Counted from the stretch's first letter, positions 4,192-16,839 are shown. The stretch: DNA of 64,000 nucleotides from Halobacteria archaeon HArc-gm2 (GCA_025517465.1 JAOPKE010000003.1:62001-126000), one strand, 5' to 3'. Numbers and translations: made by a program. The notes: a model not told the origin generated them from the sequence alone.

Positions 4192-5106
4192 ATGTCCCGC
4201 AGAACGTGGCATCGGCCGAGAGACGCGACCAGACACGGCCGTGATGCGACACTCTCGCAGGTGATCGAGGCCATCGACCGGACGGCGCCGCCGACGAAGG
4301 CGGACTTGGCCGAGGCAGTCGGTATCTCCGAACAGTACGTCTCCGAACTGCTCCAGGAACTGAAACGGGACGGCGTCGTCAGGAAGGCCTACGTCGTCGA
4401 CGACGCGGCCGTGTTCGACACCGCGGACAACGTCTCGAAGTTCTTCGAGTCGACCGCGGACGCCGCCGGCGAGAACGGCCATCGCGCGCCCGGCAACGAC
4501 AGAGGGACGACCGTCCTCGAACTGCTCGAACGACTCGACGACGTGACCTCGACCCAGTACGAGGCGGCGCGACTCGCCTTCGTGGACGAGACGCCCGACC
4601 ACCCGGCCGACGGGCTCGAATCGCTCACCAACGAGCGATACTTCGCAGTGCTCGGCGAACTGAAGTCCTATACACTGACGACCGACTGGCCTGGAAACCG
4701 CGTCGCGTCCGACCTGGCGACGATCGCGACCAACCTCGAAATCGTCGGCGACCGGTCGTGTTTCATCGCCGACGTCGTCGACCGCCAGGATACCCAGACG
4801 ACTGGCGTCATCGAGGAACGCATCCTCGACGTCTTCGAGGCGGGCAGCCGGATCAACGGCTACCTCGTGGACGTCCTCTTCGAGGGAGATCTGGACGCCT
4901 ACGACGCGTTACACGCCGAAGAGGAGACCGTCCACCGCGACCTCGACGAGCTGTTCGAACTCGTCACCGCCTACGACCCGGAGCTGTACGGCTACCTCGT
5001 GACGGTGACGCGGGCGCTCGAACGCGCGATCTACTACTGGGTGGACGCCGCCGAGATCGCCGTGCGGCTTCACTCGGGGATCGAGCCCGACCACGCGATG
5101 ATCTGA
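4192..5106 (+). CDS. HTH-PhoU fusion regulator
   Basis: Residues about 20-65 form a winged or MarR-like helix-turn-helix (KADLAEAVGISEQYVSELLQ), and residues about 95-300 resemble helical PhoU repeats with acidic His/Tyr-rich helices such as YYWVDAAEIAVRLHSG. It differs from its divergent neighbour, which uses an AbrB domain for DNA binding. It probably senses phosphate status and regulates transcription. The gene runs towards the phosphonate cluster and ends 67 bases from the convergent acetyltransferase gene. Target genes cannot be named from sequence alone. Confidence 0.7.
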   Translation: MSRRTWHRPRDATRHGRDATLSQVIEAIDRTAPPTKADLAEAVGISEQYVSELLQELKRDGVVRKAYVVDDAAVFDTADNVSKFFESTADAAGENGHRAPGNDRGTTVLELLERLDDVTSTQYEAARLAFVDETPDHPADGLESLTNERYFAVLGELKSYTLTTDWPGNRVASDLATIATNLEIVGDRSCFIADVVDRQDTQTTGVIEERILDVFEAGSRINGYLVDVLFEGDLDAYDALHAEEETVHRDLDELFELVTAYDPELYGYLVTVTRALERAIYYWVDAAEIAVRLHSGIEPDHAMI

Positions 5107-5173: not shown

Positions 5174-5869
5174 TCAGTCGGACGCTTCCGCACCGGCCGT
5201 CTCGGGTGCGTACTGATCCAGGAACGCGTCGAGGTCCCGGAACGCCGCCAGTCGGTCGGCCAGCGTCTCGTGGTCCCAGTCCCACCACTCGGTCGCCTCG
5301 ATGAGGTCGGCGACGTCTTCGGGGAACCGCCGCCGGATCGGTTCGGCGGGGGCGCCCGCGACCACGGTGTAGGGATCGACGTCGCGTGCGACGACGGCAC
5401 CCGCTCCGACGACCGCGCCGTTGCCGATTTCGACGCCCGGAAGCACGATTGCACCGTGACCGATCCAGACGTCGTGGCCGACGGTGACCGGCTGGTCGGC
5501 GCGCCACTCGAAGATGGACTCGTCGTCCTCGCCCAGGTCGTACATCTCGGCGCGGTAGGTGAAGTGGTGGGCCGACGGCCGGTCGATGGGGTGGTTCGTC
5601 GGGCCGAGGCGGGCGTCCGAAGCGACGTTGCCGAACTTCCCGACCGTGGCGTAGTCGAGCTGGACGCGCTCCATCAGGTAGGTGTAGTCGCCGACGGCGG
5701 ACTCGTTGACCCGTGCCCCGGCGCGCACCTCCGTCCACTCCCCGAGCGTGCTCTTCGTGATCTGGACCGGCTCGTGGAGCGTCGGTTCGGGCGAGAGGCC
5801 ACCCACACGGTCCGCGCCGTGGGAGTCGACGTAGTAGCCATCGTCGGTCGCTTCGAAGGGCGTCGTCAT
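5174..5869 (-). CDS. hexapeptide-repeat acetyltransferase of the phosphonate cluster
   Basis: This 231-residue protein has left-handed beta-helix repeats: ARVNESAVGDYTYLMERVQ, then HDVWIGHGAIVLPGVEIGNGAVVGAGAVV. It matches the xenobiotic or phosphonate-associated acyltransferase group often found in C-P lyase operons. The catalytic-type His lies in the region LGPTNHPIDRPSAHHFTYR. It starts 4 bases after phnE, so it is the last gene of the phnD-C-E arm. It may acetylate an aminoalkylphosphonate, as PhnO does by a different fold; that role is inferred. Confidence 0.72.
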   Translation of the reverse strand: MTTPFEATDDGYYVDSHGADRVGGLSPEPTLHEPVQITKSTLGEWTEVRAGARVNESAVGDYTYLMERVQLDYATVGKFGNVASDARLGPTNHPIDRPSAHHFTYRAEMYDLGEDDESIFEWRADQPVTVGHDVWIGHGAIVLPGVEIGNGAVVGAGAVVARDVDPYTVVAGAPAEPIRRRFPEDVADLIEATEWWDWDHETLADRLAAFRDLDAFLDQYAPETAGAEASD

Positions 5870-5873
5870 CGGG

Positions 5874-6869
5874 TCACCGCCTCCCCCCAGCCGACTCGAC
5901 GATCTTGCGCGGGGCGGTGACGAACGCCTCCAGCACGCCGGTCTTCTCGACGTCGTCCTCGTCGCGCAGGTACGAACGCACGCGCTGGCTCGCCAGTTCG
6001 ACGGAGCCGGCGAGGACGACGACCAGGATGATGCAGGCCATCATCTCGGTGTAGTTGAACGTCTGCTTCTGGATGTTGAGTTCGAGACCGAGGCCACCGG
6101 CGCCGATGAGGCCGAGGGTGATGGCGACGCGGACGTTGTGTTCGAGGTCGAAGGCGATCCAGGCGATGAACTGGCGGAACACCTGGCTGAGCATGCCAAA
6201 GGAGATGACCTGGCGCGACCCCGCGCCGGTGCTCTCGACGCCCTCGATGGGACCGTCCGCTATCTCTTCGAGTTCGTCGGTGAACAGCCGTCCCAGGTAG
6301 CCCGTGGTGTCGACCATGATGGCCAGCACGCCGGTGAAGGGCGAGACGCCGCCGAGTGGGATGAAGATGAGCGCCCAGACCAGCGCCGGGATGGCGCGGA
6401 TCAGGCTCATCGTCCCCCTGAAGAGGAAGTTGAACGGGTACGGAACGACGCGCTCGCTGGCGAGGATGCCGAACAGCAGCGCCCCCGGGAGGCCGAGGAC
6501 GGTCCCGGCGAACGCGATGGCCATCGTCACCTGCGAGGCCTGGAACAGCTCCGCCTCCACCATGAAGTTCCAGTACTGGCCGACGTCGACGAACGGGACG
6601 CCGAAGTAGGTGGTCGGCGGGAAGTACTCGGTCAGCGCGTCGAAGAAGAAGGGCAACTGGGTGGCGAGCTGTGAGAGCGTGAACTCCGCCGTCTGGAGGC
6701 TCAGCAGGAACAACCATCCCCCGGCGACGACGCCGACCGCGGTCCAGAGCCGCCGGATCGTCTTCCGCCGCTTGAGTTCGGTGAGTTTCCGGTCGACGTC
6801 GGAGGTGCCGCTCTCGGCGAGCCCGAGGTAGGCACGGATCCCGCCGCCGGGCGGCGACTCCGAACTCAC
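5874..6869 (-). CDS. phnE: phosphonate ABC transporter permease
   Basis: This 331-residue inner-membrane permease forms the channel for phosphonate import. It has about six hydrophobic helices and the binding-protein-dependent permease loop near MLSQVFRQFIAWIAFDLEHNVR, which contacts the ATPase. The PhnE family core also shows in FRGTMSLIRAIPALVWALIF. The GTG start overlaps the phnC stop (GTGA), implying coupled translation. Only one permease gene is present, so it likely acts as a homodimer. The N-terminal 60 residues are a cytoplasmic extension. Confidence 0.88.
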   Translation of the reverse strand: MSSESPPGGGIRAYLGLAESGTSDVDRKLTELKRRKTIRRLWTAVGVVAGGWLFLLSLQTAEFTLSQLATQLPFFFDALTEYFPPTTYFGVPFVDVGQYWNFMVEAELFQASQVTMAIAFAGTVLGLPGALLFGILASERVVPYPFNFLFRGTMSLIRAIPALVWALIFIPLGGVSPFTGVLAIMVDTTGYLGRLFTDELEEIADGPIEGVESTGAGSRQVISFGMLSQVFRQFIAWIAFDLEHNVRVAITLGLIGAGGLGLELNIQKQTFNYTEMMACIILVVVLAGSVELASQRVRSYLRDEDDVEKTGVLEAFVTAPRKIVESAGGRR

Positions 6870-7675
6870 GCCTCGACCCTCCAGTCGTCACCGTCGGTCG
6901 GGGGCGACTCGCCGTTCGCGTCCGCGTCGACTGCGACGGGGTCGTCCGCCAGGCCGACCGTCTCGACGTCGCCGTAGAGGTCGTCGATGAGGTCGCCGGT
7001 GAGTTCGTCGCTCCCGACGTCGAACAGCAACTGGCCGTCGCGCAACCCGATGAACCGCTCGCCGAAGTGGGCCGCGATGTTCACCTGGTGGAGGCTCACG
7101 AGCGCCGTCACCTGGTGGACGGACGCGGCCTTCTTGAGGTAGCCCATCACCGTCTCGGCGCTGGACGGGTCGAGACTGGCGACGGGTTCGTCGGCCAGGA
7201 GGAGCGACGGGTCCTGGACCAGGGCGCGGGCAATGCCGACGCGCTGTTGCTGGCCGCCGCTCATCTGCGTGACACGCTGGTGTGCTTCGTCGAGGAGGCC
7301 GACGGTGTCGAGCGCTTCGAGGGCCCGTCGCTTGTCCGCACGGTCCTGCCACTGGAACAGGCTCTCGACGAACCCGGCCCGTTCGAGCGAGCCGGTGAGT
7401 GCGTTCAGGTACGCCGAGACGCCCTCGACGAGGTTGTGCTGCTGGAAGATCATCCCGACCGACGGCTGGGAGCCTTCGAGGGGCTCGCCGTCGAGGTAGA
7501 CGCCGCCGCTGGTCGGCTCCGTCAACCCGTTCACGCAACGCAGCAGCGTCGACTTCCCGGCGCCGGACTCGCCCAGCAGGACGACGAACTCGTCTTCGAT
7601 CTCGAAGGAGACGTCCTCGACCGCCGTGACGTCGCCGTACTCCTTCGTCAGGTTCTCTACGGTGAGTGTACTCAT
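6866..7675 (-). CDS. phnC: phosphonate ABC transporter ATP-binding protein
   Basis: This ATPase energises phosphonate import through PhnE. Walker A is [15 protein letters not shown], the signature is [15 protein letters not shown], Walker B is [13 protein letters not shown], and the switch His is in VSLHQVN. The VSLHQVN form and overall layout match PhnC rather than a generic importer ATPase. It is 269 residues, with an acidic tail of about 30 residues. It follows phnD by 28 bases and overlaps phnE by 4. Confidence 0.9.
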
Positions 7676-7703: not shown

Positions 7704-8726
7704 CTAGCCGAGATCGATGCCGAGGTCGTTGAGTCGCTTGATGACGGGTTCGTAGTTGTCCATCGTCGTCTTCTCGAGGGTCGTGAACGGCAGGTCGTTC
7801 TCGTTGTAGTCGTCGGGCAGGTACTCCTGTATCAACGCCTCGTCGGACGCGAGCAGTTGCTCGCGGATCTTCTCTTTCATCGGCGATTCCCACGACTGGC
7901 GCGCGTATATCGGCTGTTTGGGGATCGGGAAGGACCACCAGAACGGCCGGAGCGCCGTGCCCTCCTCGCCGCGATTGCCGGTGAACGAGTCCTCTTCTGC
8001 GACGCGGTCGGGGAGTTCCTGGTCCTCGGCGAGGTAGGCCATGCCGTTCCCGGACCAGGTGGTACATGCGTCGGCCTCGTCGTTCAGCACGCGCTGGACG
8101 GCGTCACCGTGGTTGGACCACGTCCCCTCGAAGTCGACCGGGTCCCCGTCCGGGGCGTCGCCGACGTCCAGGCCGGCCTCCTTGAGCGCGTAGACGGCGA
8201 AGATAGATCCGCTCGTCGAGAGCCGGTCGGCGAAGGCCATGTTTTTCCCCTCGATATCCGTCCGCTCGTCGATGTCCGAGTCGGGCTTCGTGAGCATCAT
8301 GGAGAAGTAGAAGGCCGTCCCGCCGGTGACGGCTGTCCCGAACAGGTCCATGATGTCCGGTTTCGAGATGAGCGTCACGTCGTCCATCCCGATCTCGGCC
8401 TGTTCGCTCTCGAGGGCCGTCCGCACTGCCGAGTAGTCCTGGGGGACTTCCATCTCCAGATCGAGGCCGTCGATTTCCCCTTCGAGCATGTCGTGAACGG
8501 GAGCGTACTGCGGCCGTACGTCCGACGGTGTGTCGGGAGTCAGCAGCATCGTTATCGGCTCACTTCCGCCGCCACCGAGCACGCCCGAACACCCCGCGAG
8601 ACTCGTGAGTGCGGCGGTCCCGGCTGCGCCACCGACCAGGAACCCGCGGCGACTCACCCGTCCCGTGTCCATCCCGTCCGTCCGTTCCCGTACACCCGAT
8701 CCGTCGGTGCTGGTCTCGTCCAACAT
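7704..8726 (-). CDS. phnD: phosphonate-binding lipoprotein
   Basis: This is the extracytoplasmic solute-binding protein of the PhnDCE importer. A twin-arginine signal (VSRRGFLVGGAAGTAAL) precedes a lipobox, LAGC, so it is exported folded and probably anchored by lipid. The PhnD-type region includes ITMLLTPDTPSDVRPQYAP and TWSGNGMAYLAED. I chose ATG at 8726; GTG at 8729 adds one residue. A TATA-like element at about 8746-8753 fits a leaderless transcript from that start. The gene is divergent from phnG across 226 bases. Confidence 0.88.
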   Translation of the reverse strand: MLDETSTDGSGVRERTDGMDTGRVSRRGFLVGGAAGTAALTSLAGCSGVLGGGGSEPITMLLTPDTPSDVRPQYAPVHDMLEGEIDGLDLEMEVPQDYSAVRTALESEQAEIGMDDVTLISKPDIMDLFGTAVTGGTAFYFSMMLTKPDSDIDERTDIEGKNMAFADRLSTSGSIFAVYALKEAGLDVGDAPDGDPVDFEGTWSNHGDAVQRVLNDEADACTTWSGNGMAYLAEDQELPDRVAEEDSFTGNRGEEGTALRPFWWSFPIPKQPIYARQSWESPMKEKIREQLLASDEALIQEYLPDDYNENDLPFTTLEKTTMDNYEPVIKRLNDLGIDLG

Positions 8727-8745
8727 CACCTGAACGGCCCGGAGT

Positions 8746-8952: not shown

Positions 8953-9396
8953 ATGGACGATCCACACGACCGGTCGGATAGATTCGAGTTGATCGCCGCT
9001 TGCGACGGCGACGCCCTCGAATCGGTCGCCGACCAGGTACTGGCCAGCGATCCGACGCTTGACGTACTCCAGGAACCGCGGCCACAGCTCGTGATGCAGC
9101 GCGTCGTCGAACCCGTCGAACGCCGGCCGTTCAACCTCGGCGAGGTCGTCGTCACGCCCGCGGAGGTCTCCCTCGACGGCGAGCGTGGGTTCGCGATGGT
9201 CCCGGGCAAGGCCGAACGGGCCGCTCTCTCCGGCGCGATCGTCGACGCCGCCGTCGCCGACCGCCACCCGATCGCCGACGAGGCCGTCGCCGTCCTGGAA
9301 CAGGCAGGCGAGGCGTACGAACGCGAGCGCGAACAGACGTGGGCGGAGAGTCGCCACACGACCGTCGAGTTCGAGACGATGGAGGACGACCTGTGA
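8953..9396 (+). CDS. phnG: C-P lyase core subunit PhnG
   Basis: PhnG is a core subunit of the carbon-phosphorus lyase complex and, with PhnH, PhnI and PhnL, attaches phosphonate to ribose from ATP. The family core reads PFNLGEVVVTPAEVSLDG followed by GFAMVPGKAERAALSGAIVDAA. I chose ATG at 8953 (147 residues), because the upstream GTG at 8935 adds six residues and crowds the TATA element. The stop overlaps the phnH GTG start. Confidence 0.85.
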   Translation: MDDPHDRSDRFELIAACDGDALESVADQVLASDPTLDVLQEPRPQLVMQRVVEPVERRPFNLGEVVVTPAEVSLDGERGFAMVPGKAERAALSGAIVDAAVADRHPIADEAVAVLEQAGEAYEREREQTWAESRHTTVEFETMEDDL

Positions 9397-9944
9397 GAGC
9401 GCTCGGCATCGACCCCGTGCACGACACGCAGACCGCGTTTCGCGCCCTGTGCGACGCGACGAGTCGGCCGGGGACCGTCGCCGACGTCGGCTCTTCGCCC
9501 GCCGATCACGCGATTCTCGCCACGCTCGTCGACCACGAAGTGCGCACGTGGACCGACGACGGAGAGCTCCGTTCAGCACTGGAGAGCCAGGGCCGCTTCG
9601 ACCCGATCGAACCGGCCGAGGCCGACCTGCTCCACACGCACGGCCAGCCCGACTGGGACGTCCGCGAGTGCAGCCACGGGTCGCTGGTCGAACCGAGCGA
9701 GGGCGCGACCGTCGTCTATCGCGTCGACGGCCTCGAAACGGGCCCGGACAGCGCGCTCACGACCGTCGAACTGATCGGGCCGGGCGTCGACGGGACGCGC
9801 CGCCTCAGTGCCGACCTCCCGGCCAGCGAACTCGAACGGCTCAGGGAAGCCCAGTCGACCTATCCGCGGGGCGTCGACGCCTACCTGACGAGCGGCGAGT
9901 ACGTGGCGGCCATCCCGCGGTCGAACGACCTGGAGGTGGTGTAG
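9393..9944 (+). CDS. phnH: C-P lyase core subunit PhnH
   Basis: PhnH is a structural subunit of the PhnGHIJ complex. The family's opening motif is present as THDTQ-like HDTQTAFRALCDATSRPGTV, and TTVELIGPGVDG is the conserved central strand region. The start is GTG at 9393, overlapping the phnG stop codon. A longer frame from 9339 would overlap phnG by 58 bases and is not needed. The length of 183 residues is close to the family norm (about 190). The phnI ATG follows the stop directly. Confidence 0.85.
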   Translation: MRALGIDPVHDTQTAFRALCDATSRPGTVADVGSSPADHAILATLVDHEVRTWTDDGELRSALESQGRFDPIEPAEADLLHTHGQPDWDVRECSHGSLVEPSEGATVVYRVDGLETGPDSALTTVELIGPGVDGTRRLSADLPASELERLREAQSTYPRGVDAYLTSGEYVAAIPRSNDLEVV

Positions 9945-11093
9945 ATGGGCTACGTCGCCGTCACGGCCGGCGAGGAGATCATCGAACGCGCCGAGGACCT
10001 CTTCGAGAAGCAGCGCCTCGACGACGACGCGCCCTCGCTCTCCGTCGACCAGGTCGACGGCCAGCTCTCGCGGCTGACCGCCCAGGCAATGAGCGAAGGC
10101 GGGCTGTACGCGCCGCGACTCGCCGCGCTCGCCGTCATCCAGGCCCAGGGTGACACCGTCGAGGCGTCGTTCCTCCTGCAGGCCTACCGTTCGACGCTGG
10201 AGCGGTGGGACGAGACCAACCCAGTCGACCCGTCGGATATGTTCGCGACGCGCCGGGTGTCGCCGGCCTACAAGGACGTCCCTGGCGGCCAGATACTCGG
10301 CCCGACCAAGGACTACACGCAGCGGCTCCTCGACTTCGACATCGAGGGTGCGGACGAGATCGACCCGACCGCGGACTGGGACCTCCCGGACGCCGAGCCG
10401 ACCACCGTCCGGAACGTCATGGACGTGCTCCGCGAGGAGGGGCTGGTCCACGAACCGGCGGCCGACGCCGCCGACTTGGACGACCCGGTCGACACGACCC
10501 GCGAACCAGTCACGCATCCGGCAGGCCGGGACGAGGTGCTCCAGGAACTCGCCCGTGGCGAGACCGGGGCCGTCACCGCGCTGGGCTACTCCGCGATGCG
10601 CGGCTACGGCCAGGTCCACCCGACGCTCGCCGAGGTCCGGGTCGGGAAACTTCCCGTCAGGATAACGCATCCCTACACCGGCGACGACGTCCGGGTCACC
10701 GACGTCGAGGTGAGCGAGTCCGAGGCCGTCGTGCCCGTGTACGCCAAGCGCGACGACCCGCAGTTCGCCTTCGGCTACGGCCTCACCTTCGGCCGAAACG
10801 AGCGCAAGACCATCGCGATGACCATCCTCGACGCGTCCATCCAGCTCGACAGCGAAGCAGAGCCCGCCGAGAACCCCGAGTTCGTCCTCGACGCCGTCGA
10901 CGGGCTGGATTCGTTCGGCTTCATCGAGCACCTCAAACTCCCCCACTACGTCACCTTCCAGAGCATCCTCGACCGCATCCGCGCCGTCAGAGAGGGTCGA
11001 GGACTCGACGCGGAAGTCGGGACGGCAGCCTCGTCGGCTGCAGACGGTGGCGACGCGCCGGCCCAGGCCCCGGAGGTGAGCGACGATGACTGA
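9945..11093 (+). CDS. phnI: C-P lyase core subunit PhnI (nucleosidase subunit)
   Basis: PhnI, with PhnG, PhnH and PhnL, converts MgATP and alkylphosphonate to ribose-1-alkylphosphonate triphosphate. Characteristic stretches are RLTAQAMSEGGLYAPRLAALA and RRVSPAYKDVPGGQILGPTKDYTQR near residues 45-125, and GFIEHLKLPHYVTFQS near the C-terminus. It has 382 residues, a little longer than the roughly 354 of the E. coli protein because of an Ala/Gly-rich tail. It starts right after the phnH stop and overlaps phnJ by 8 bases. Confidence 0.88.
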   Translation: MGYVAVTAGEEIIERAEDLFEKQRLDDDAPSLSVDQVDGQLSRLTAQAMSEGGLYAPRLAALAVIQAQGDTVEASFLLQAYRSTLERWDETNPVDPSDMFATRRVSPAYKDVPGGQILGPTKDYTQRLLDFDIEGADEIDPTADWDLPDAEPTTVRNVMDVLREEGLVHEPAADAADLDDPVDTTREPVTHPAGRDEVLQELARGETGAVTALGYSAMRGYGQVHPTLAEVRVGKLPVRITHPYTGDDVRVTDVEVSESEAVVPVYAKRDDPQFAFGYGLTFGRNERKTIAMTILDASIQLDSEAEPAENPEFVLDAVDGLDSFGFIEHLKLPHYVTFQSILDRIRAVREGRGLDAEVGTAASSAADGGDAPAQAPEVSDDD

Positions 11094-12174
11094 CGCTGGG
11101 GCGGACGCGGCCGACGGGACCGAGCCGGCGGCAGCCGCCGAGAGCGGGACGCAGATCTCGGCGACGTCCGTCGCGGACGCCGTCGACGACCTCTCGGGCG
11201 AGGGGCTCTCGGGGTACAACTACGCGTACCTCGACGAACACACCAAGCGCGAGGTCCGGCGGGCCATCCTGAAGGGAATCGCCATCCCGGGCCACCAGGT
11301 ACCGTTCGCGTCGCGTCCGATGCCGCTGGCCCGGGGCTGGGGCACCGGCGGTATCCAGGCGTCGCTCTCCCTGCTGGGGCCCGACGACGCCTTCAAGGTC
11401 ATCGACCAGGGTTCCGACGAGAGCGTCAACGCCGCCAACGTCCGGCGACTGGCCGAGACGACCGCCGAGGTCGAGACGACCACCGATACGACCGAGGCCG
11501 ACGTGATCCAGACGCGCCACCGAATCCCCGAGGAGGTCCTGGACGAGGACCAGATCCTCGTCCTCCAGGTACCCATCACCGACGCGCTCCGGAAGGTCGA
11601 CTCCTCCGACGCGGCGAATCGCCGGCGCCACGCCCACGCGAACTACGGGAAGATGTGGGTCCACCTCTACGAGAACGTCGTCGAGTGGGGCGAGATACAG
11701 ATCGCTGCCCGTTACCCGGCGATGGTCGCCGGCCGCTATCTCATGGACCCCTCACCTATCCCGCGCTGGGACCTCCCCAAACTCGACGACGCGGACAACC
11801 TGTTCGTCTTCGCGGCCGGCCGCGAGGCGCGCATCTACGCGGTCCCGCCCCACACCGACGTCGAGCCCCTGGCCTTCGAGGACAAATCCTTCCAGGTCGA
11901 GCGGTTCCCCGACCAGTCGTGTCACTCCTGCGGGTCGACGGACACCTACCTCACCGAGATAGAGACCGAGGAGGGGACCGAGTCCGACGGTGGCGACCGG
12001 CTCTACGTCTGCAACGACACCAGCTTCTGCCTGAAACGGCAGGACGACCCGGGCCTGGCCAAGGACCACCACCTCGACCGCGAGGGAGTGGACTGGGGGC
12101 CCGGAACGCCGGGCGGGCCAGCCGGTGCGGACCGCGATGAACTCGCCGAGGGCGACGGGGGTGACGACGCGTGA
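11086..12174 (+). CDS. phnJ: C-P lyase radical SAM subunit PhnJ
   Basis: PhnJ cleaves the carbon-phosphorus bond of ribose-1-phosphonate-5-phosphate by radical SAM chemistry, releasing alkane and a cyclic ribose phosphate. The cluster and thiyl cysteines of the family appear as Cys279-x2-Cys282, Cys309 and Cys315 (CNDTSFC); the E. coli protein has the equivalent C-x2-C-x21-C-x5-C. Here the middle spacing is x26, so there is a five-residue acidic insert. The protein is about 80 residues longer than the E. coli one, with low-complexity extensions at both ends. The stop overlaps the phnK GTG. Confidence 0.9.
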   Translation: MTDAGADAADGTEPAAAAESGTQISATSVADAVDDLSGEGLSGYNYAYLDEHTKREVRRAILKGIAIPGHQVPFASRPMPLARGWGTGGIQASLSLLGPDDAFKVIDQGSDESVNAANVRRLAETTAEVETTTDTTEADVIQTRHRIPEEVLDEDQILVLQVPITDALRKVDSSDAANRRRHAHANYGKMWVHLYENVVEWGEIQIAARYPAMVAGRYLMDPSPIPRWDLPKLDDADNLFVFAAGREARIYAVPPHTDVEPLAFEDKSFQVERFPDQSCHSCGSTDTYLTEIETEEGTESDGGDRLYVCNDTSFCLKRQDDPGLAKDHHLDREGVDWGPGTPGGPAGADRDELAEGDGGDDA

Positions 12175-13001
12175 CGCTGCTCGATGCCAGCGACCTGCGG
12201 CGGGTCTACGGCGACTCCTGTGGCGACTGCGTCGAATTGACCGGCGACGCGGCGGGGACGAACCAGTGTCCCGAATGCGGCGCCGTGGTGGCGTGTGCCG
12301 ACGTCTCGCTCGATGTCGAGCCCGGCGAAGTCCTGGGCATCGTCGGCGAATCCGGCTCGGGGAAATCCAGCGTCGCCGAGCTGCTCGCCCTCGAACGCGC
12401 GACCGATGGACAGGCAAGCGGCGACGTTCGGCTCGACGGCCACGACGGCAACCTCCTCGACGCCGACTACGAGACGCGCCACCGCCTTCGCAACGGCGCG
12501 GTCGGGCTCGTCCACCAGCACGTCCGCGACGGGCTCAACCTCGAGTTCACCGGCGGCGGCAACGTCGCCGAGAAGCTGCTGGCCGCGGGCTGGCGCAACT
12601 TCGGCGACGTCCGCGACCGCGTCCGCGACCTCTTCGAGGAGACGGAGGTCCCGGTCGAGCGGATGGACGACCCGACGGAGACGTACAGCGGCGGGATGCA
12701 ACGCCGGGTCCAGATCGCTCGCGCGCTGGCCACCGACCCAGACGTGGTGATCCTCGACGAACCGACGACGGGGCTCGACGTCAGCGTCCAGGCCCGCGTG
12801 CTGGACATGTTCCGGCGCATCCAGCGCGAGGAGGACGTGGCCGCCGTCGTCGTGAGCCACGACCTGGGCGTCGTCAGGCTGCTTGCCGACCGGACGCTGG
12901 TAATGCGCCACGGACGCGTCGTCGAGACCGGCCTGACGGACCGCGTCATGGAGGACCCGCACCACGAGTACACGCAGACCCTCATCAACTCAGTCATATG
13001 A
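12171..13001 (+). CDS. phnK: C-P lyase ABC-type ATPase PhnK with cysteine insert
   Basis: PhnK is an ABC-family ATPase that docks on the C-P lyase core rather than driving transport. Walker A is IVGESGSGKSSVAEL, the signature YSGGMQRRVQIARAL and Walker B VVILDEPTTGLDVS. Before Walker A lies an insert with Cys17-x2-Cys20 and Cys33-x2-Cys36, plus Cys42, resembling a zinc knuckle; the E. coli protein lacks it. The GTG start overlaps the phnJ stop, and the stop overlaps the phnL ATG by the ATGA arrangement. Confidence 0.87.
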   Translation: MTLLDASDLRRVYGDSCGDCVELTGDAAGTNQCPECGAVVACADVSLDVEPGEVLGIVGESGSGKSSVAELLALERATDGQASGDVRLDGHDGNLLDADYETRHRLRNGAVGLVHQHVRDGLNLEFTGGGNVAEKLLAAGWRNFGDVRDRVRDLFEETEVPVERMDDPTETYSGGMQRRVQIARALATDPDVVILDEPTTGLDVSVQARVLDMFRRIQREEDVAAVVVSHDLGVVRLLADRTLVMRHGRVVETGLTDRVMEDPHHEYTQTLINSVI

Positions 13002-13741
13002 CCGACGTTCTCACCGTCGAAGGACTCACCAAGACCTTCGACATGCACGCGCTCGGCGACAAACAGGTCGTCGGGCTCGACGACGTATCGTTCACCGTCC
13101 GCCGCGGCGAGTTCCTCGCTATCGTGGGCGAGTCCGGCAGTGGCAAGTCCTCGCTGCTGAAGTGTCTCTACCGGACGTACGAACCGACGGCCGGGTCGAC
13201 GGTCTACCACCCCGCAGACGCCGACCTGGCGACCTGTGACGACCGCACGGTGATGGCCATCCGGGACTCGACGCTCGGCTACGCGTCGCAGTTCCTCGAC
13301 GAGATTCCGCGCGTCCCGGCCATCGACGTCGTCGCCCGGCCGCTTATGGAGCGCGGGACGCCGGCGGCGCAGGCTCGCGACCGTGCCCGCGAGCTCCTGG
13401 ACGCGCTCGGGCTGCCAGAAGAACTGTGGGAGGCCTACCCGGCCACGTTCTCGGGCGGCGAGCGCCAGCGGGTCAACCTCGCGCAGGCGCTCGCGCCGGA
13501 GCCGGAGCTCCTCCTGCTCGACGAACCCACGAGCGCGCTCGACCCCGAGACGCGGACGGCGGCCATCGAGTTGCTCTCAGAGTCGACCGACGCGGAGACG
13601 ACGGTCGTCGGCGTCTTCCACGACCGCGACGTCGTCGAACGGGTCGCCGACCGCGTGGCCGTGCTCGACGGGGGCGAACTGCAACGCGTCGTCCCGGTCG
13701 CGGAGTTCGCTGCCGAGGAGGAAGAAGAGGTGGTCGCATGA
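12998..13741 (+). CDS. phnL: C-P lyase ABC-type ATPase PhnL
   Basis: PhnL is the second ABC-type ATPase of the C-P lyase pathway and assists the PhnGHI reaction. Walker A is IVGESGSGKSSLLKC, the signature FSGGERQRVNLAQAL, and Walker B LLLLDEPTSALDP. The PhnL-specific stretch is TLGYASQFLDEIPRVPAIDVVARPL. The true start is ATG at 12998; an open frame extends far upstream but lies within phnK. Both ends overlap neighbours by ATGA. The length of 247 residues is close to the family's usual size. Confidence 0.88.
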   Translation: MTDVLTVEGLTKTFDMHALGDKQVVGLDDVSFTVRRGEFLAIVGESGSGKSSLLKCLYRTYEPTAGSTVYHPADADLATCDDRTVMAIRDSTLGYASQFLDEIPRVPAIDVVARPLMERGTPAAQARDRARELLDALGLPEELWEAYPATFSGGERQRVNLAQALAPEPELLLLDEPTSALDPETRTAAIELLSESTDAETTVVGVFHDRDVVERVADRVAVLDGGELQRVVPVAEFAAEEEEEVVA

Positions 13742-14919
13742 GCCAGCGACCGCGGTCCACCGGTGAAACGGTAACTGACGCGACGTCGTCTTTCGCCGTG
13801 ACGAACGCCACCGTCGTCACGCCCGACGCGGTCGTCGAGGGCGGCGTTCGGATCGAGGGCGACCGCATAGTCGCCGTCGGTGACGTCGACGACGCCGACG
13901 CAGTGACCGTCGACGCCGACGGCCAGTACGTCCTGCCGGGCCTGGTCGACCTCCACGGCGACGACATCGAGTCCCACCTGCACCCGCGCGCCGGAGCGCG
14001 CATGGACACGCACATGGCGCTCGCGGCGGCGGACCGGGCGAACCTCGCGGCGGGCATCACGACGAAGTTCCACGCCATCTCCTTCGAGATCGACCCCGAT
14101 GCCGACCGGTCGCCCGAACTCGGGGCCGAGCTGACGGACGCCATCGAGTCGACGGACGACCTGCTGGCCGACCACCGCCTCCACGCGCGCTGTGAAGTCA
14201 CACAGGAGGAATGCGTCGACGCCGTCGTCGACGTGACCGAGGCCGGCAACGCCGACCTCGTGTCCGTGATGAGCCACGTCCCCGGCAAAGGACAGTTTCG
14301 GGACGAGGAGGCGTTCCTCCAGTACTACCGGGACTCCCACGACCACACCGTCGAGGAAGCCGAAGAGATGATCGCCGAGCGCGGGGACGTCTCGATGGAG
14401 ACCATCCGCGAGCGCATCGAGCGCGTCGTCGACTGTGCCCACGCGAACGGTGCCGTCACGGCGTCCCACGACGACGAGGACCCCGCAGAGGTCGAGCGTC
14501 TCGCCGAAGCGGGCGTCGACATCTCGGAGTACCCGATCACGATGGCGACCGCCGAACGGGCCCACGAGCTCGGGATGACCGTGACGATGGGCGCACCGAA
14601 CCTCGTCCGCGGGGAGAGCCAGTGGGGGAACCTCGCCACCGCCGACGCCATCGATGCCGGGGTCGTCGACGCGCTCGTTGCCGACTACCACCCGCTCTCG
14701 CTCCTGGCCGGGACCTTCGTCGAGACCGGTGAGCCGCTCCCCGAGCGAGTCGCGAGAGTGACGGCGAACCCGGCGAGTGCGGCCGGTCTCCCGGACCGCG
14801 GCCGTCTCGAACCGGGCGCGCGAGCCGACCTCGTCGTGGTGGACCGGAACCCGACGCCGACGGTGTCGCGGGCGTTCGTCGCCGGCGACCCGGTATACCG
14901 GGCGGAGGGGTCGCGATGA
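13738..14919 (+). CDS. phnM: ribose-1-phosphonate triphosphate diphosphatase PhnM
   Basis: PhnM removes pyrophosphate from alpha-D-ribose 1-alkylphosphonate 5-triphosphate, giving the substrate for PhnJ. It is an amidohydrolase-fold enzyme: the metal motif is LVDLHGDDIESHLHPR near residues 69-84, further ligands lie in KFHAISFE, MSHVPGKGQF and SHDDE, and the end of the barrel is VADYHPLSLL. I start at ATG 13738 (393 residues), overlapping the phnL stop; a longer frame would sit inside phnL. Its stop overlaps the next gene's ATG, so that gene is translationally coupled. Confidence 0.9.
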   Translation: MSQRPRSTGETVTDATSSFAVTNATVVTPDAVVEGGVRIEGDRIVAVGDVDDADAVTVDADGQYVLPGLVDLHGDDIESHLHPRAGARMDTHMALAAADRANLAAGITTKFHAISFEIDPDADRSPELGAELTDAIESTDDLLADHRLHARCEVTQEECVDAVVDVTEAGNADLVSVMSHVPGKGQFRDEEAFLQYYRDSHDHTVEEAEEMIAERGDVSMETIRERIERVVDCAHANGAVTASHDDEDPAEVERLAEAGVDISEYPITMATAERAHELGMTVTMGAPNLVRGESQWGNLATADAIDAGVVDALVADYHPLSLLAGTFVETGEPLPERVARVTANPASAAGLPDRGRLEPGARADLVVVDRNPTPTVSRAFVAGDPVYRAEGSR

Positions 14920-15719
14920 CGTCAGTCGGTGCTGCGATGGACGTCCGCTTCGGCGTCTCTGTCGAACAGTTCGTCGAGTACGTCACCGAGCTCGGGCTCT
15001 CCCACGTCGAACTGAAGCGCGAGTACCTCCACGGTCATCCCGACGCGCCCTCGCCGGCGGAACTCGGCACCATTGCCGACCGGTACGGCGTGTCCATCAC
15101 GTACCACGCACCGTTCCGCGACTGGAACATGGGAAGTTTCAACGACGCTGTGCGGGAAGCGTCCGTTTCACAGGTGAAGCAGACGCTCGACGACGCAGCG
15201 GCGGCCGGGGCGGGGGCCGTCGTCGTTCACGGCGGCGCCGTCCCGCATCGCTACCCCTCGTGGGTCAGGGAGAAGGCCGCCGAAAATGCCCGCCAGTCGT
15301 TGCGAGAGTGCGCCGAATACGCCCAGTTCGTCGGCGTTCCGCTCTGCCTGGAGAACCAGCCCGTCAGCGACGAGAAGCAGCGCTGCACGACGACGCCAGA
15401 CGACCTGGAATCCTCGCTCCGAGCGGCGGACGTCCTGCCCGAATATCTCGGCGTCACGCTCGACGTGGGGCATGCGAAGGTCAATGGCTACGACTGGCGC
15501 GACTTCGTCGACCGCTTCGGCGACCGAATTCGGGTGTGTCACCTCCACGACAACGACGGTACGGCCGACGATCACGAGCCGCTCACCGACTATCGTCAGA
15601 TAGTCGACGCCGTCCCGGCCGACTACTTCGTCTTCGAGACGAAGTCGGTCGCCGACGTCGCCCGGTGTCTGGGCGTCGACGAAGACGACATCGAAACCCC
15701 GCCGACCCGTTTCGGGTGA
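14916..15719 (+). CDS. TIM-barrel sugar phosphate isomerase/endonuclease IV-like protein in the phn operon
   Basis: The last gene of the lyase arm overlaps phnM by ATGA. The 267-residue protein has the xylose isomerase-like/AP endonuclease 2 fold with a set of metal ligands: His in TYHAPF, His in VVHGG, Glu in CLENQP, Asp and His in TLDVGHAK, His in HLHDNDG and Glu near the end in FETK. Classical operons end with phnP (a beta-lactamase-fold cyclic phosphodiesterase) and phnN, which are absent here. It may process the ribose phosphate made by PhnJ, but family members range from epimerases to nucleases, so substrate is inference. Confidence 0.75.
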   Translation: MTSVGAAMDVRFGVSVEQFVEYVTELGLSHVELKREYLHGHPDAPSPAELGTIADRYGVSITYHAPFRDWNMGSFNDAVREASVSQVKQTLDDAAAAGAGAVVVHGGAVPHRYPSWVREKAAENARQSLRECAEYAQFVGVPLCLENQPVSDEKQRCTTTPDDLESSLRAADVLPEYLGVTLDVGHAKVNGYDWRDFVDRFGDRIRVCHLHDNDGTADDHEPLTDYRQIVDAVPADYFVFETKSVADVARCLGVDEDDIETPPTRFG

Positions 15720-15948: not shown

Positions 15949-16839
15949 ATGTCACGGGATACCGAGGGACGGACGAAGCACGTATCGCGACGGGGCGTTC
16001 TCAAGACCACTGGAGCGGTGCTGGGCACTGCGGCGCTCAGCGGGACGGCATCGGCGTCCAGAAACTGGGGGCGGGGCCGAGGCCGAAACGACGACCTCGC
16101 CATCACGGCCCACCGCGGATTCAGGGACGTCTTCCCGCAGAACACGGTCGCCGCCATCGAGGGGTCGTGTCGCCTCGGTGCCGACCGGATCGAGATCGAC
16201 GTCGAAGCGACGGCGGACGGCGAGATCGTCGTCTTCCACGACGCTGCGCTCGACGACCTCACGGACGAGGAGGGACTCGTCGCCGAAACGCCGTCCGAGA
16301 CGGTGCTGGAAGCAGAAATCCTGGAGTCGGGCGAGACGATTCCGACGCTCGCCGAGACGCTCGACGCGGCGTGGCCCAGGGTGACGATGAACATCGAGTT
16401 CAAGGATTCGGGCCCGCTCTCTTGGACGGAGTTCGCCGAGCGAACGCTCCAGATCGCGTCGCAGTACCGGGGCGAGTACTACGCATCCTCGTTCGACCCG
16501 GACGCGCTCAGGGCGGTCCGGAACGTCGATCCGGACGTCGCGGTGGCCCCGATATTCGGGCAGAACAAAGAGGAGAATCTGGCGATTGCCCGGGAGCTCG
16601 ACGCGGAGGCGGTCAACCCATCGACAGGGGTTCTCGACCAGGACCTCGTCGAAGCCGCACACGAGGAAGACCGGGACGTGAACGTCTGGACGATCGATAG
16701 CTGGCGAGAGGCGAGTACGCCCGTCGAACTCGGCGTCGACGGGCTGATCGCCGACTACCCTCACATGGCCACCTTCGCCACTCGTGAGAGTCGCGACGGC
16801 CGGCGAGGCTGGGGCAACCGCGGACGCGCAGGGAACTAG
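15949..16839 (+). CDS. Tat-exported glycerophosphodiester phosphodiesterase
   Basis: It should hydrolyse glycerophosphodiesters outside the membrane to glycerol 3-phosphate and an alcohol. The Tat signal SRRGVLKTTGAVLGTAALSG ends near residue 38. The GDPD catalytic pattern is complete: ITAHRGFRDVFPQNT (His and Arg), DRIEIDVEATADG (Glu and Asp) and VVFHDAAL (His). It stands 229 bases after the C-P lyase operon on the same strand with its own promoter. With PhoU and phn genes it points to phosphorus scavenging. A glycine/arginine-rich tail ends the 296-residue protein. Confidence 0.85.
   Translation: MSRDTEGRTKHVSRRGVLKTTGAVLGTAALSGTASASRNWGRGRGRNDDLAITAHRGFRDVFPQNTVAAIEGSCRLGADRIEIDVEATADGEIVVFHDAALDDLTDEEGLVAETPSETVLEAEILESGETIPTLAETLDAAWPRVTMNIEFKDSGPLSWTEFAERTLQIASQYRGEYYASSFDPDALRAVRNVDPDVAVAPIFGQNKEENLAIARELDAEAVNPSTGVLDQDLVEAAHEEDRDVNVWTIDSWREASTPVELGVDGLIADYPHMATFATRESRDGRRGWGNRGRAGN

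Follow-up and report, generated by a model that had tools for sequence, protein, structure and literature searches.

Phosphonate catabolism by the C-P lyase pathway is best described in E. coli, where the genes form the operon phnCDEFGHIJKLMNOP. PhnI-GHL, PhnM and PhnJ convert the phosphonate to 5-phosphoribosyl 1,2-cyclic phosphate (PRcP), which is then opened by PhnP, a phosphodiesterase of the metallo-beta-lactamase fold. According to section 5.3 of a review of 2023 (PMC10574752), bacteria without phnP often have rcsF, which encodes a 2H (DUF1045) phosphodiesterase and is also a non-orthologous gene of operons that lack phnP; we observed a DUF1045 gene in Paracoccus. The same section gives Haloquadratum walsbyi and Natronomonas moolapensis as archaea without phnNOP (section 5.3) and records no published case of archaeal phosphonate consumption as of 2023 (PMC10574752). 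It makes no mention of a TIM-barrel partner of archaeal phn operons, and no report of such a partner was found in the open-access literature. As far as these sources extend, it was known before that haloarchaeal phn operons have no phnNOP, and the barrel as a candidate partner is the new part.

The window analysed is a stretch of 64,000 nucleotides from Halobacteria archaeon HArc-gm2 (JAOPKE010000003.1:62001-126000). Pfam and NCBIfam models place phnG-H-I-J-K-L-M contiguously at 8953-14919 on the plus strand, in the same core order as in E. coli, followed by a gene for a TIM barrel of the xylose-isomerase/endonuclease IV (EndoIV) type, hereafter the barrel (Table 1). By comparison with the E. 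coli operon, the haloarchaeal locus is without phnF, phnN, phnO and phnP and has the EndoIV-fold barrel coupled to phnM instead; the phnD-C-E transporter genes and a TIGR03308 transferase gene lie divergently upstream of phnG, outside the span covered by an initial annotation of this DNA. That annotation had described phnGHIJKLM as all present and overlapping. Their presence was borne out by the family models, and overlap holds at every junction from phnG to the barrel gene except phnH/phnI, where the two genes abut. The initial annotation was also right in its coordinates and, for the last gene, in the ATGA overlap with phnM, the length of 267 residues and the fold class, AP_endonuc_2, for which PF01261 scored 109 bits against a gathering score of 31.1, placing the protein in this superfamily.

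Table 1. Features of the phn locus in the window, with strand and basis of assignment.
Feature	Coordinates	Strand	Basis
PhoU-family/HTH regulator	4192..5106	+	64% to LDB05_RS22020, annotated as PhoU family regulator
phosphonate-associated hexapeptide-repeat transferase	5174..5869	-	TIGR03308 305 bits, cut-off 202
phnE, phosphonate permease	5874..6869	-	68% to annotated PhnE
phnC, phosphonate ABC transporter ATPase	6866..7675	-	76% to annotated PhnC
phnD, phosphonate-binding protein, divergent	7704..8729	-	60% to annotated PhnD of Natrinema salinisoli
phnG	8953..9396	+	ATG start at 8953; PF06754 84 bits; TIGR03293 111 bits, over cut-off
phnH	9393..9944	+	GTG start; GTGA overlap with phnG; PF05845 and TIGR03292 over cut-off
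phnI	9945..11093	+	PF05861 445 bits
phnJ, radical-SAM C-P lyase	11086..12174	+	PF06007 432 bits; cysteine motif CX2C-X26-CX5C at 279-315
phnK, ABC-type ATPase	12171..13001	+	GTG start; best NCBIfam match TIGR02323 PhnK, under cut-off
phnL, ABC-type ATPase	12998..13741	+	best NCBIfam match TIGR02324 PhnL, under cut-off
phnM, ribose 1-methylphosphonate 5-triphosphate diphosphatase	13738..14919	+	NF011990 456 bits, cut-off 233
EndoIV-type TIM barrel, proposed cyclic ribose phosphate phosphodiesterase	14916..15719	+	PF01261; ATGA overlap with phnM; nine invariant ligands; AlphaFold2; linkage

Three of the proteins scored under their equivalog cut-offs (PhnK 217 of 303 bits, PhnL 239.7 versus 256.3, and PhnM 361 of 391 with TIGR02318), although the corresponding model was still the best or second-best named match for each, and PhnM was over the PRK15446 cut-off (456 versus 233). 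PhnJ has the four-cysteine motif C279-X2-C282-X26-C309-X5-C315, as a C-P lyase should, and its glycine region reads IPG..QVPF. An alternative start of phnG is possible at an in-frame GTG (8935). A gene for a PhoU-family/HTH regulator adjoins most haloarchaeal phn loci.

PhnP and PhnN had been noted as absent from the window, and neither was over cut-off anywhere in the genome: the best matches to the curated PhnP model (TIGR03307) were 57 and 37 bits against a cut-off of 272, and to PhnN (TIGR02322) 25 bits against 156. Among 73 genomes, none had PhnP over cut-off; the best matches per genome (28-68 bits) were weak metallo-beta-lactamases, equally good in genomes with and without phnJ, and no PhnP-like protein tracks phnJ. 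Similarly, PhnN was over cut-off in none of the 24 phnJ-positive genomes tested (best 27 bits, cut-off 156). Even so, PRcP could be a substrate of some generic metallo-beta-lactamase that resembles the PhnP model only weakly. A gene for a Tat-signal glycerophosphodiester phosphodiesterase (GDPD; window 15949-16839) lies 230 bases past the barrel gene, and few relatives have it close to their phn genes; it was rejected as the missing phosphodiesterase on its Tat-type N-terminus and its lack of conservation at the locus.

The distribution of the barrel was examined in 391 genomes of the class Halobacteria, 38 of which have phnJ. A close homologue of the barrel (identity of approximately 60% or higher across the aligned portion) was present in all 38 phnJ-positive genomes and in none of the 353 phnJ-negative ones (Fisher 1e-53, a descriptor only, as it assumes independent genomes, which these are not). 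Since 18 of 86 genera have phnJ, in a scattered pattern, common descent within a handful of strains is no explanation of this linkage. The coupling to phnM described by the initial annotation is likewise conserved, with the order GHIJKLM-barrel found in all readable haloarchaeal phn loci; two loci cut by contig ends (G299 and G345) and one damaged locus (G313) stand outside this count. The 4-base phnM/barrel overlap was identical in 35 of 38 measured junctions, a set that includes loci from named records, a few of which duplicate sampled genomes. The linkage of the barrel gene to C-P lyase is near-absolute in Halobacteria. At the damaged locus (L114), a search of the 10 kb from phnJ to a barrel gene without its N-terminal part gave no phnK-L-M, and this operon is probably inactivated. 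The HArc-gm2 genome itself has, on contig C4 (L174:10477-11038), a relic phnM end beside a frameshifted N-terminal half of a barrel gene, with TFIIB-like and ArdC-like genes nearby; this is the trace of a second phn locus, lost or moved.

The barrel had been credited with a full set of metal ligands, which the alignment confirmed: H64, H105, E146, D183, H186, H209, D218, H220 and E241 are invariant in 50 of 50 sequences (32 operon barrels and 18 paralogues). We take these nine residues, matched by motif, to be the counterparts of the trinuclear zinc ligands of EndoIV; profile alignment with EndoIV 5zhz gave the common motifs HAP, VHGG, LEN, D-x-x-H and VH, the last three ligand positions being equated by motif only. 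Other positions, namely E36, F67, W70, S74, P110, P149 and W194, are specific to the phn barrels. While the fold and the nine-residue ligand set are common to the barrel and endonuclease IV (Nfo), the barrel scored far under the cut-offs of that family (20.3 versus 129.65 bits for TIGR00587; 48.8 versus 244 for NF002198) and is linked to phosphonate genes, not to DNA repair. Its best-scoring named family is CbiR (NF041277; 70.4 bits, under the cut-off of 105), the model of which matches all 50 barrel members. CbiR likewise has the AP_endonuc_2 fold and carries out metal-dependent hydrolysis of the phosphoribosyl bond in cobamides (PMC7733943). By contrast with CbiR, the barrel has no adjoining cobamide genes; its neighbour is phnM in every locus that could be read.

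A confident AlphaFold2 model of the barrel (pLDDT 93) was compared with solved structures by Foldseek, which ranked MJ1311 (3wqo) first, epimerases next and EndoIV after them. MJ1311, a D-tagatose 3-epimerase-like protein of unknown function, is also, among solved structures, the nearest in sequence (81 bits), with the aligned motifs HAPF, VVHPG, LEN, FDIGH and DEH; the control genome of Methanocaldococcus jannaschii gave no PhnJ match. The AP_endonuc_2 fold class also includes isomerases, epimerases and a dehydratase. The E-D-H-E ligands of the single-metal site of sugar isomerases and epimerases, a class defined by its activity as well, are present in the barrel as a subset of the nine. Since MJ1311 and the epimerases rank above EndoIV, the fold alone is not decisive; nor does the ligand site alone pinpoint PRcP as the substrate, as close paralogues in phnJ-negative genomes retain all nine ligands.

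Taken with its genomic linkage, the ligand set and the match to CbiR make it fairly probable that the protein encoded at 14916-15719 is the cyclic-phosphate phosphodiesterase of the operon and a non-orthologous replacement of PhnP. PhnI-GHL, PhnM and PhnJ would make PRcP in this archaeon as in E. coli, and in the barrel, water would be activated at a metal cluster of the EndoIV type, for which the nine invariant residues (His, Asp and Glu) would be the ligands; we infer PRcP as the substrate, the cyclic phosphodiester of which would be opened, with ribose 1,5-bisphosphate as the simplest product. The barrel is probably the missing enzyme because it was found in every sampled relative with the pathway. 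The proposed reaction and its position in the pathway are the same as for PhnP, from which the barrel differs in having an unrelated fold, as it does from the 2H fold of RcsF. The EndoIV fold was not previously linked to PRcP opening in the literature examined; if the assignment is true, it joins the other, unrelated folds that carry out this reaction, and proteins now annotated as sugar isomerases gain a function. Overall, the locus represents a known pathway in variant form, in which sequence comparison has placed a new family of candidate enzymes at a known gap. For the archaeal C-P lyase pathway, the gap at the cyclic sugar phosphate now has one named candidate with near-absolute linkage and a readable active site, the role of which bears on a possible release of methane from methylphosphonate by hypersaline archaea.

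Beyond ring opening, ribose 1,5-bisphosphate would have to be handled without PhnN, and the downstream route that we infer could run through a HAD phosphatase. A HAD-IA hydrolase gene lies directly 3' of the barrel gene in 18 loci, about half of the operons. In HArc-gm2, a relative is encoded on contig C1 (L175:5892-6569) between a pst transporter cluster and phoU, a placement identical in the sister genome G138; both relatives have 55-59% identity to the phn-operon HAD protein (58% for the one in HArc-gm2), and the pst-phoU gene is consistent with a phosphate-starvation phosphatase. The alternative onward route, in the species that have it, would be ribose-1,5-bisphosphate isomerase, an enzyme of a pathway already described in haloarchaea (PMC9700705). 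This isomerase was rejected as a universal step after the barrel, as strong matches (E below 1e-100) were found in 19 of 38 phnJ-positive genomes only and none in HArc-gm2. Complementarity of the isomerase and the HAD gene was not significant (p = 0.33), and HAD relatives were absent from the isomerase loci examined for comparison with the published RuBP phosphatase. Given the varying placement of the HAD gene and the partial distribution of the isomerase, ribose 1,5-bisphosphate is probably used in more ways than one.

The initial annotation had put the barrel forward as the best candidate either for PRcP opening or for an alternative ribose-phosphate conversion, and this functional reading is well supported by the genomic evidence as a candidate role. 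Between the two, we favour phosphodiester hydrolysis on the nine-ligand site, on CbiR as the nearest model and on what appears to be independent recruitment. It is unlikely that the barrel instead isomerises or epimerises a sugar phosphate once the ring is open, such as ribose 1,5-bisphosphate to ribulose 1,5-bisphosphate, with PRcP opened by an unlinked metallo-beta-lactamase. The public annotation is 'sugar phosphate isomerase/epimerase', epimerases dominate the fold search, and the half of phnJ-positive genomes without the known ribose-1,5-bisphosphate isomerase, this one included, leave room for another such enzyme. However, the other half have that isomerase and yet retain the barrel; the aligned tagatose/psicose epimerases keep the E, D and H ligands but not H64 and H105; and no PhnP-like protein follows phnJ in its distribution.

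A hydrolytic barrel may also do more than open the ring. PhnPP, a PHP-family cyclic phosphate dihydrolase, hydrolyses both ester bonds of PRcP, and a barrel acting in this manner would give ribose 5-phosphate and phosphate directly. A multi-metal site would be capable of both steps, there is no PhnN, and some operons have no HAD phosphatase; we nevertheless consider such a dihydrolase unlikely, as the HAD phosphatase directly after the barrel in around half of the operons would then be superfluous. An action upstream of the lyase, on phosphonate esters or other imported phosphodiesters that feed the lyase or the phosphorus supply, is suggested by the Tat-signal GDPD gene downstream, by distant relatives in agrocinopine-like and ugp-type transporter operons, and by paralogous haloarchaeal barrels found with an ECF-type transporter and a phosphatase. 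This is very unlikely given the strict co-occurrence with phnJ and the coupling to phnM, not to the transporter, and the GDPD is not a conserved neighbour. PRcP opening by the barrel is the reading that we retain.

Paralogous barrels (46-57% identity, with the nine ligands) were found in approximately 20 haloarchaeal genomes, nearly all phnJ-negative (L075-L094, e.g. L072:7390-12762). More than half of these loci encode a 2-phosphosulfolactate-phosphatase-like protein (PF04029) and/or an ECF-type transporter (CbiQ, a double ATPase and a membrane protein), and they are likely to represent an unknown phosphodiester or cofactor salvage system. In the tree, the paralogous group lies inside the phn barrel group, with a root that rests on long branches. 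A non-haloarchaeal archaeon, G397, has phnDCE-GHIJKLM followed within 16 bases of phnM by a gene for a 304-residue barrel, which keeps the same ligands at 25% identity to the window barrel and groups with rhizobial barrels, apart from the haloarchaeal ones (99/95 support; long branches). Because the G397 barrel falls in a different branch of the superfamily, recruitment to archaeal phn operons probably happened twice. The use of a barrel is not universal in archaea, since in G509 a pdxS-like reading frame, and no barrel, comes after the phn cluster, and that genome encodes a PhnP-like protein (78 bits). A wider reading, which we offer only tentatively and regard as doubtful, is that archaea have on two or more occasions taken up an EndoIV-fold enzyme for the completion of the C-P lyase pathway, one that may convert PRcP all the way to ribose 5-phosphate and phosphate, and that the sister group with its ComB-like phosphatase and ECF-type transporter marks a second, unknown haloarchaeal pathway of phosphodiester salvage.

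Among bacteria, the Agrobacterium plasmid pAt2 encodes a distant barrel of the rhizobial type with EndoIV-like ligands (L153:5959-6855), annotated 'TIM barrel protein', in an operon with two glycerophosphodiester-phosphodiesterase-family genes, an inositol-monophosphatase-family gene and a sucrose phosphorylase gene; by analogy, this gene set can be read as resembling catabolism of agrocinopine, a sugar-phosphodiester opine. On the Thermus thermophilus plasmid pVV8, genes for a TIGR00282 metallophosphoesterase and a nine-ligand barrel lie 2-3 kb past the phn cluster (L156:11732-14057). This barrel, approximately 3 kb after phnM, was not counted as a case of phn linkage, as the sister plasmid pHB5002b does not keep this arrangement and has no barrel at that position.
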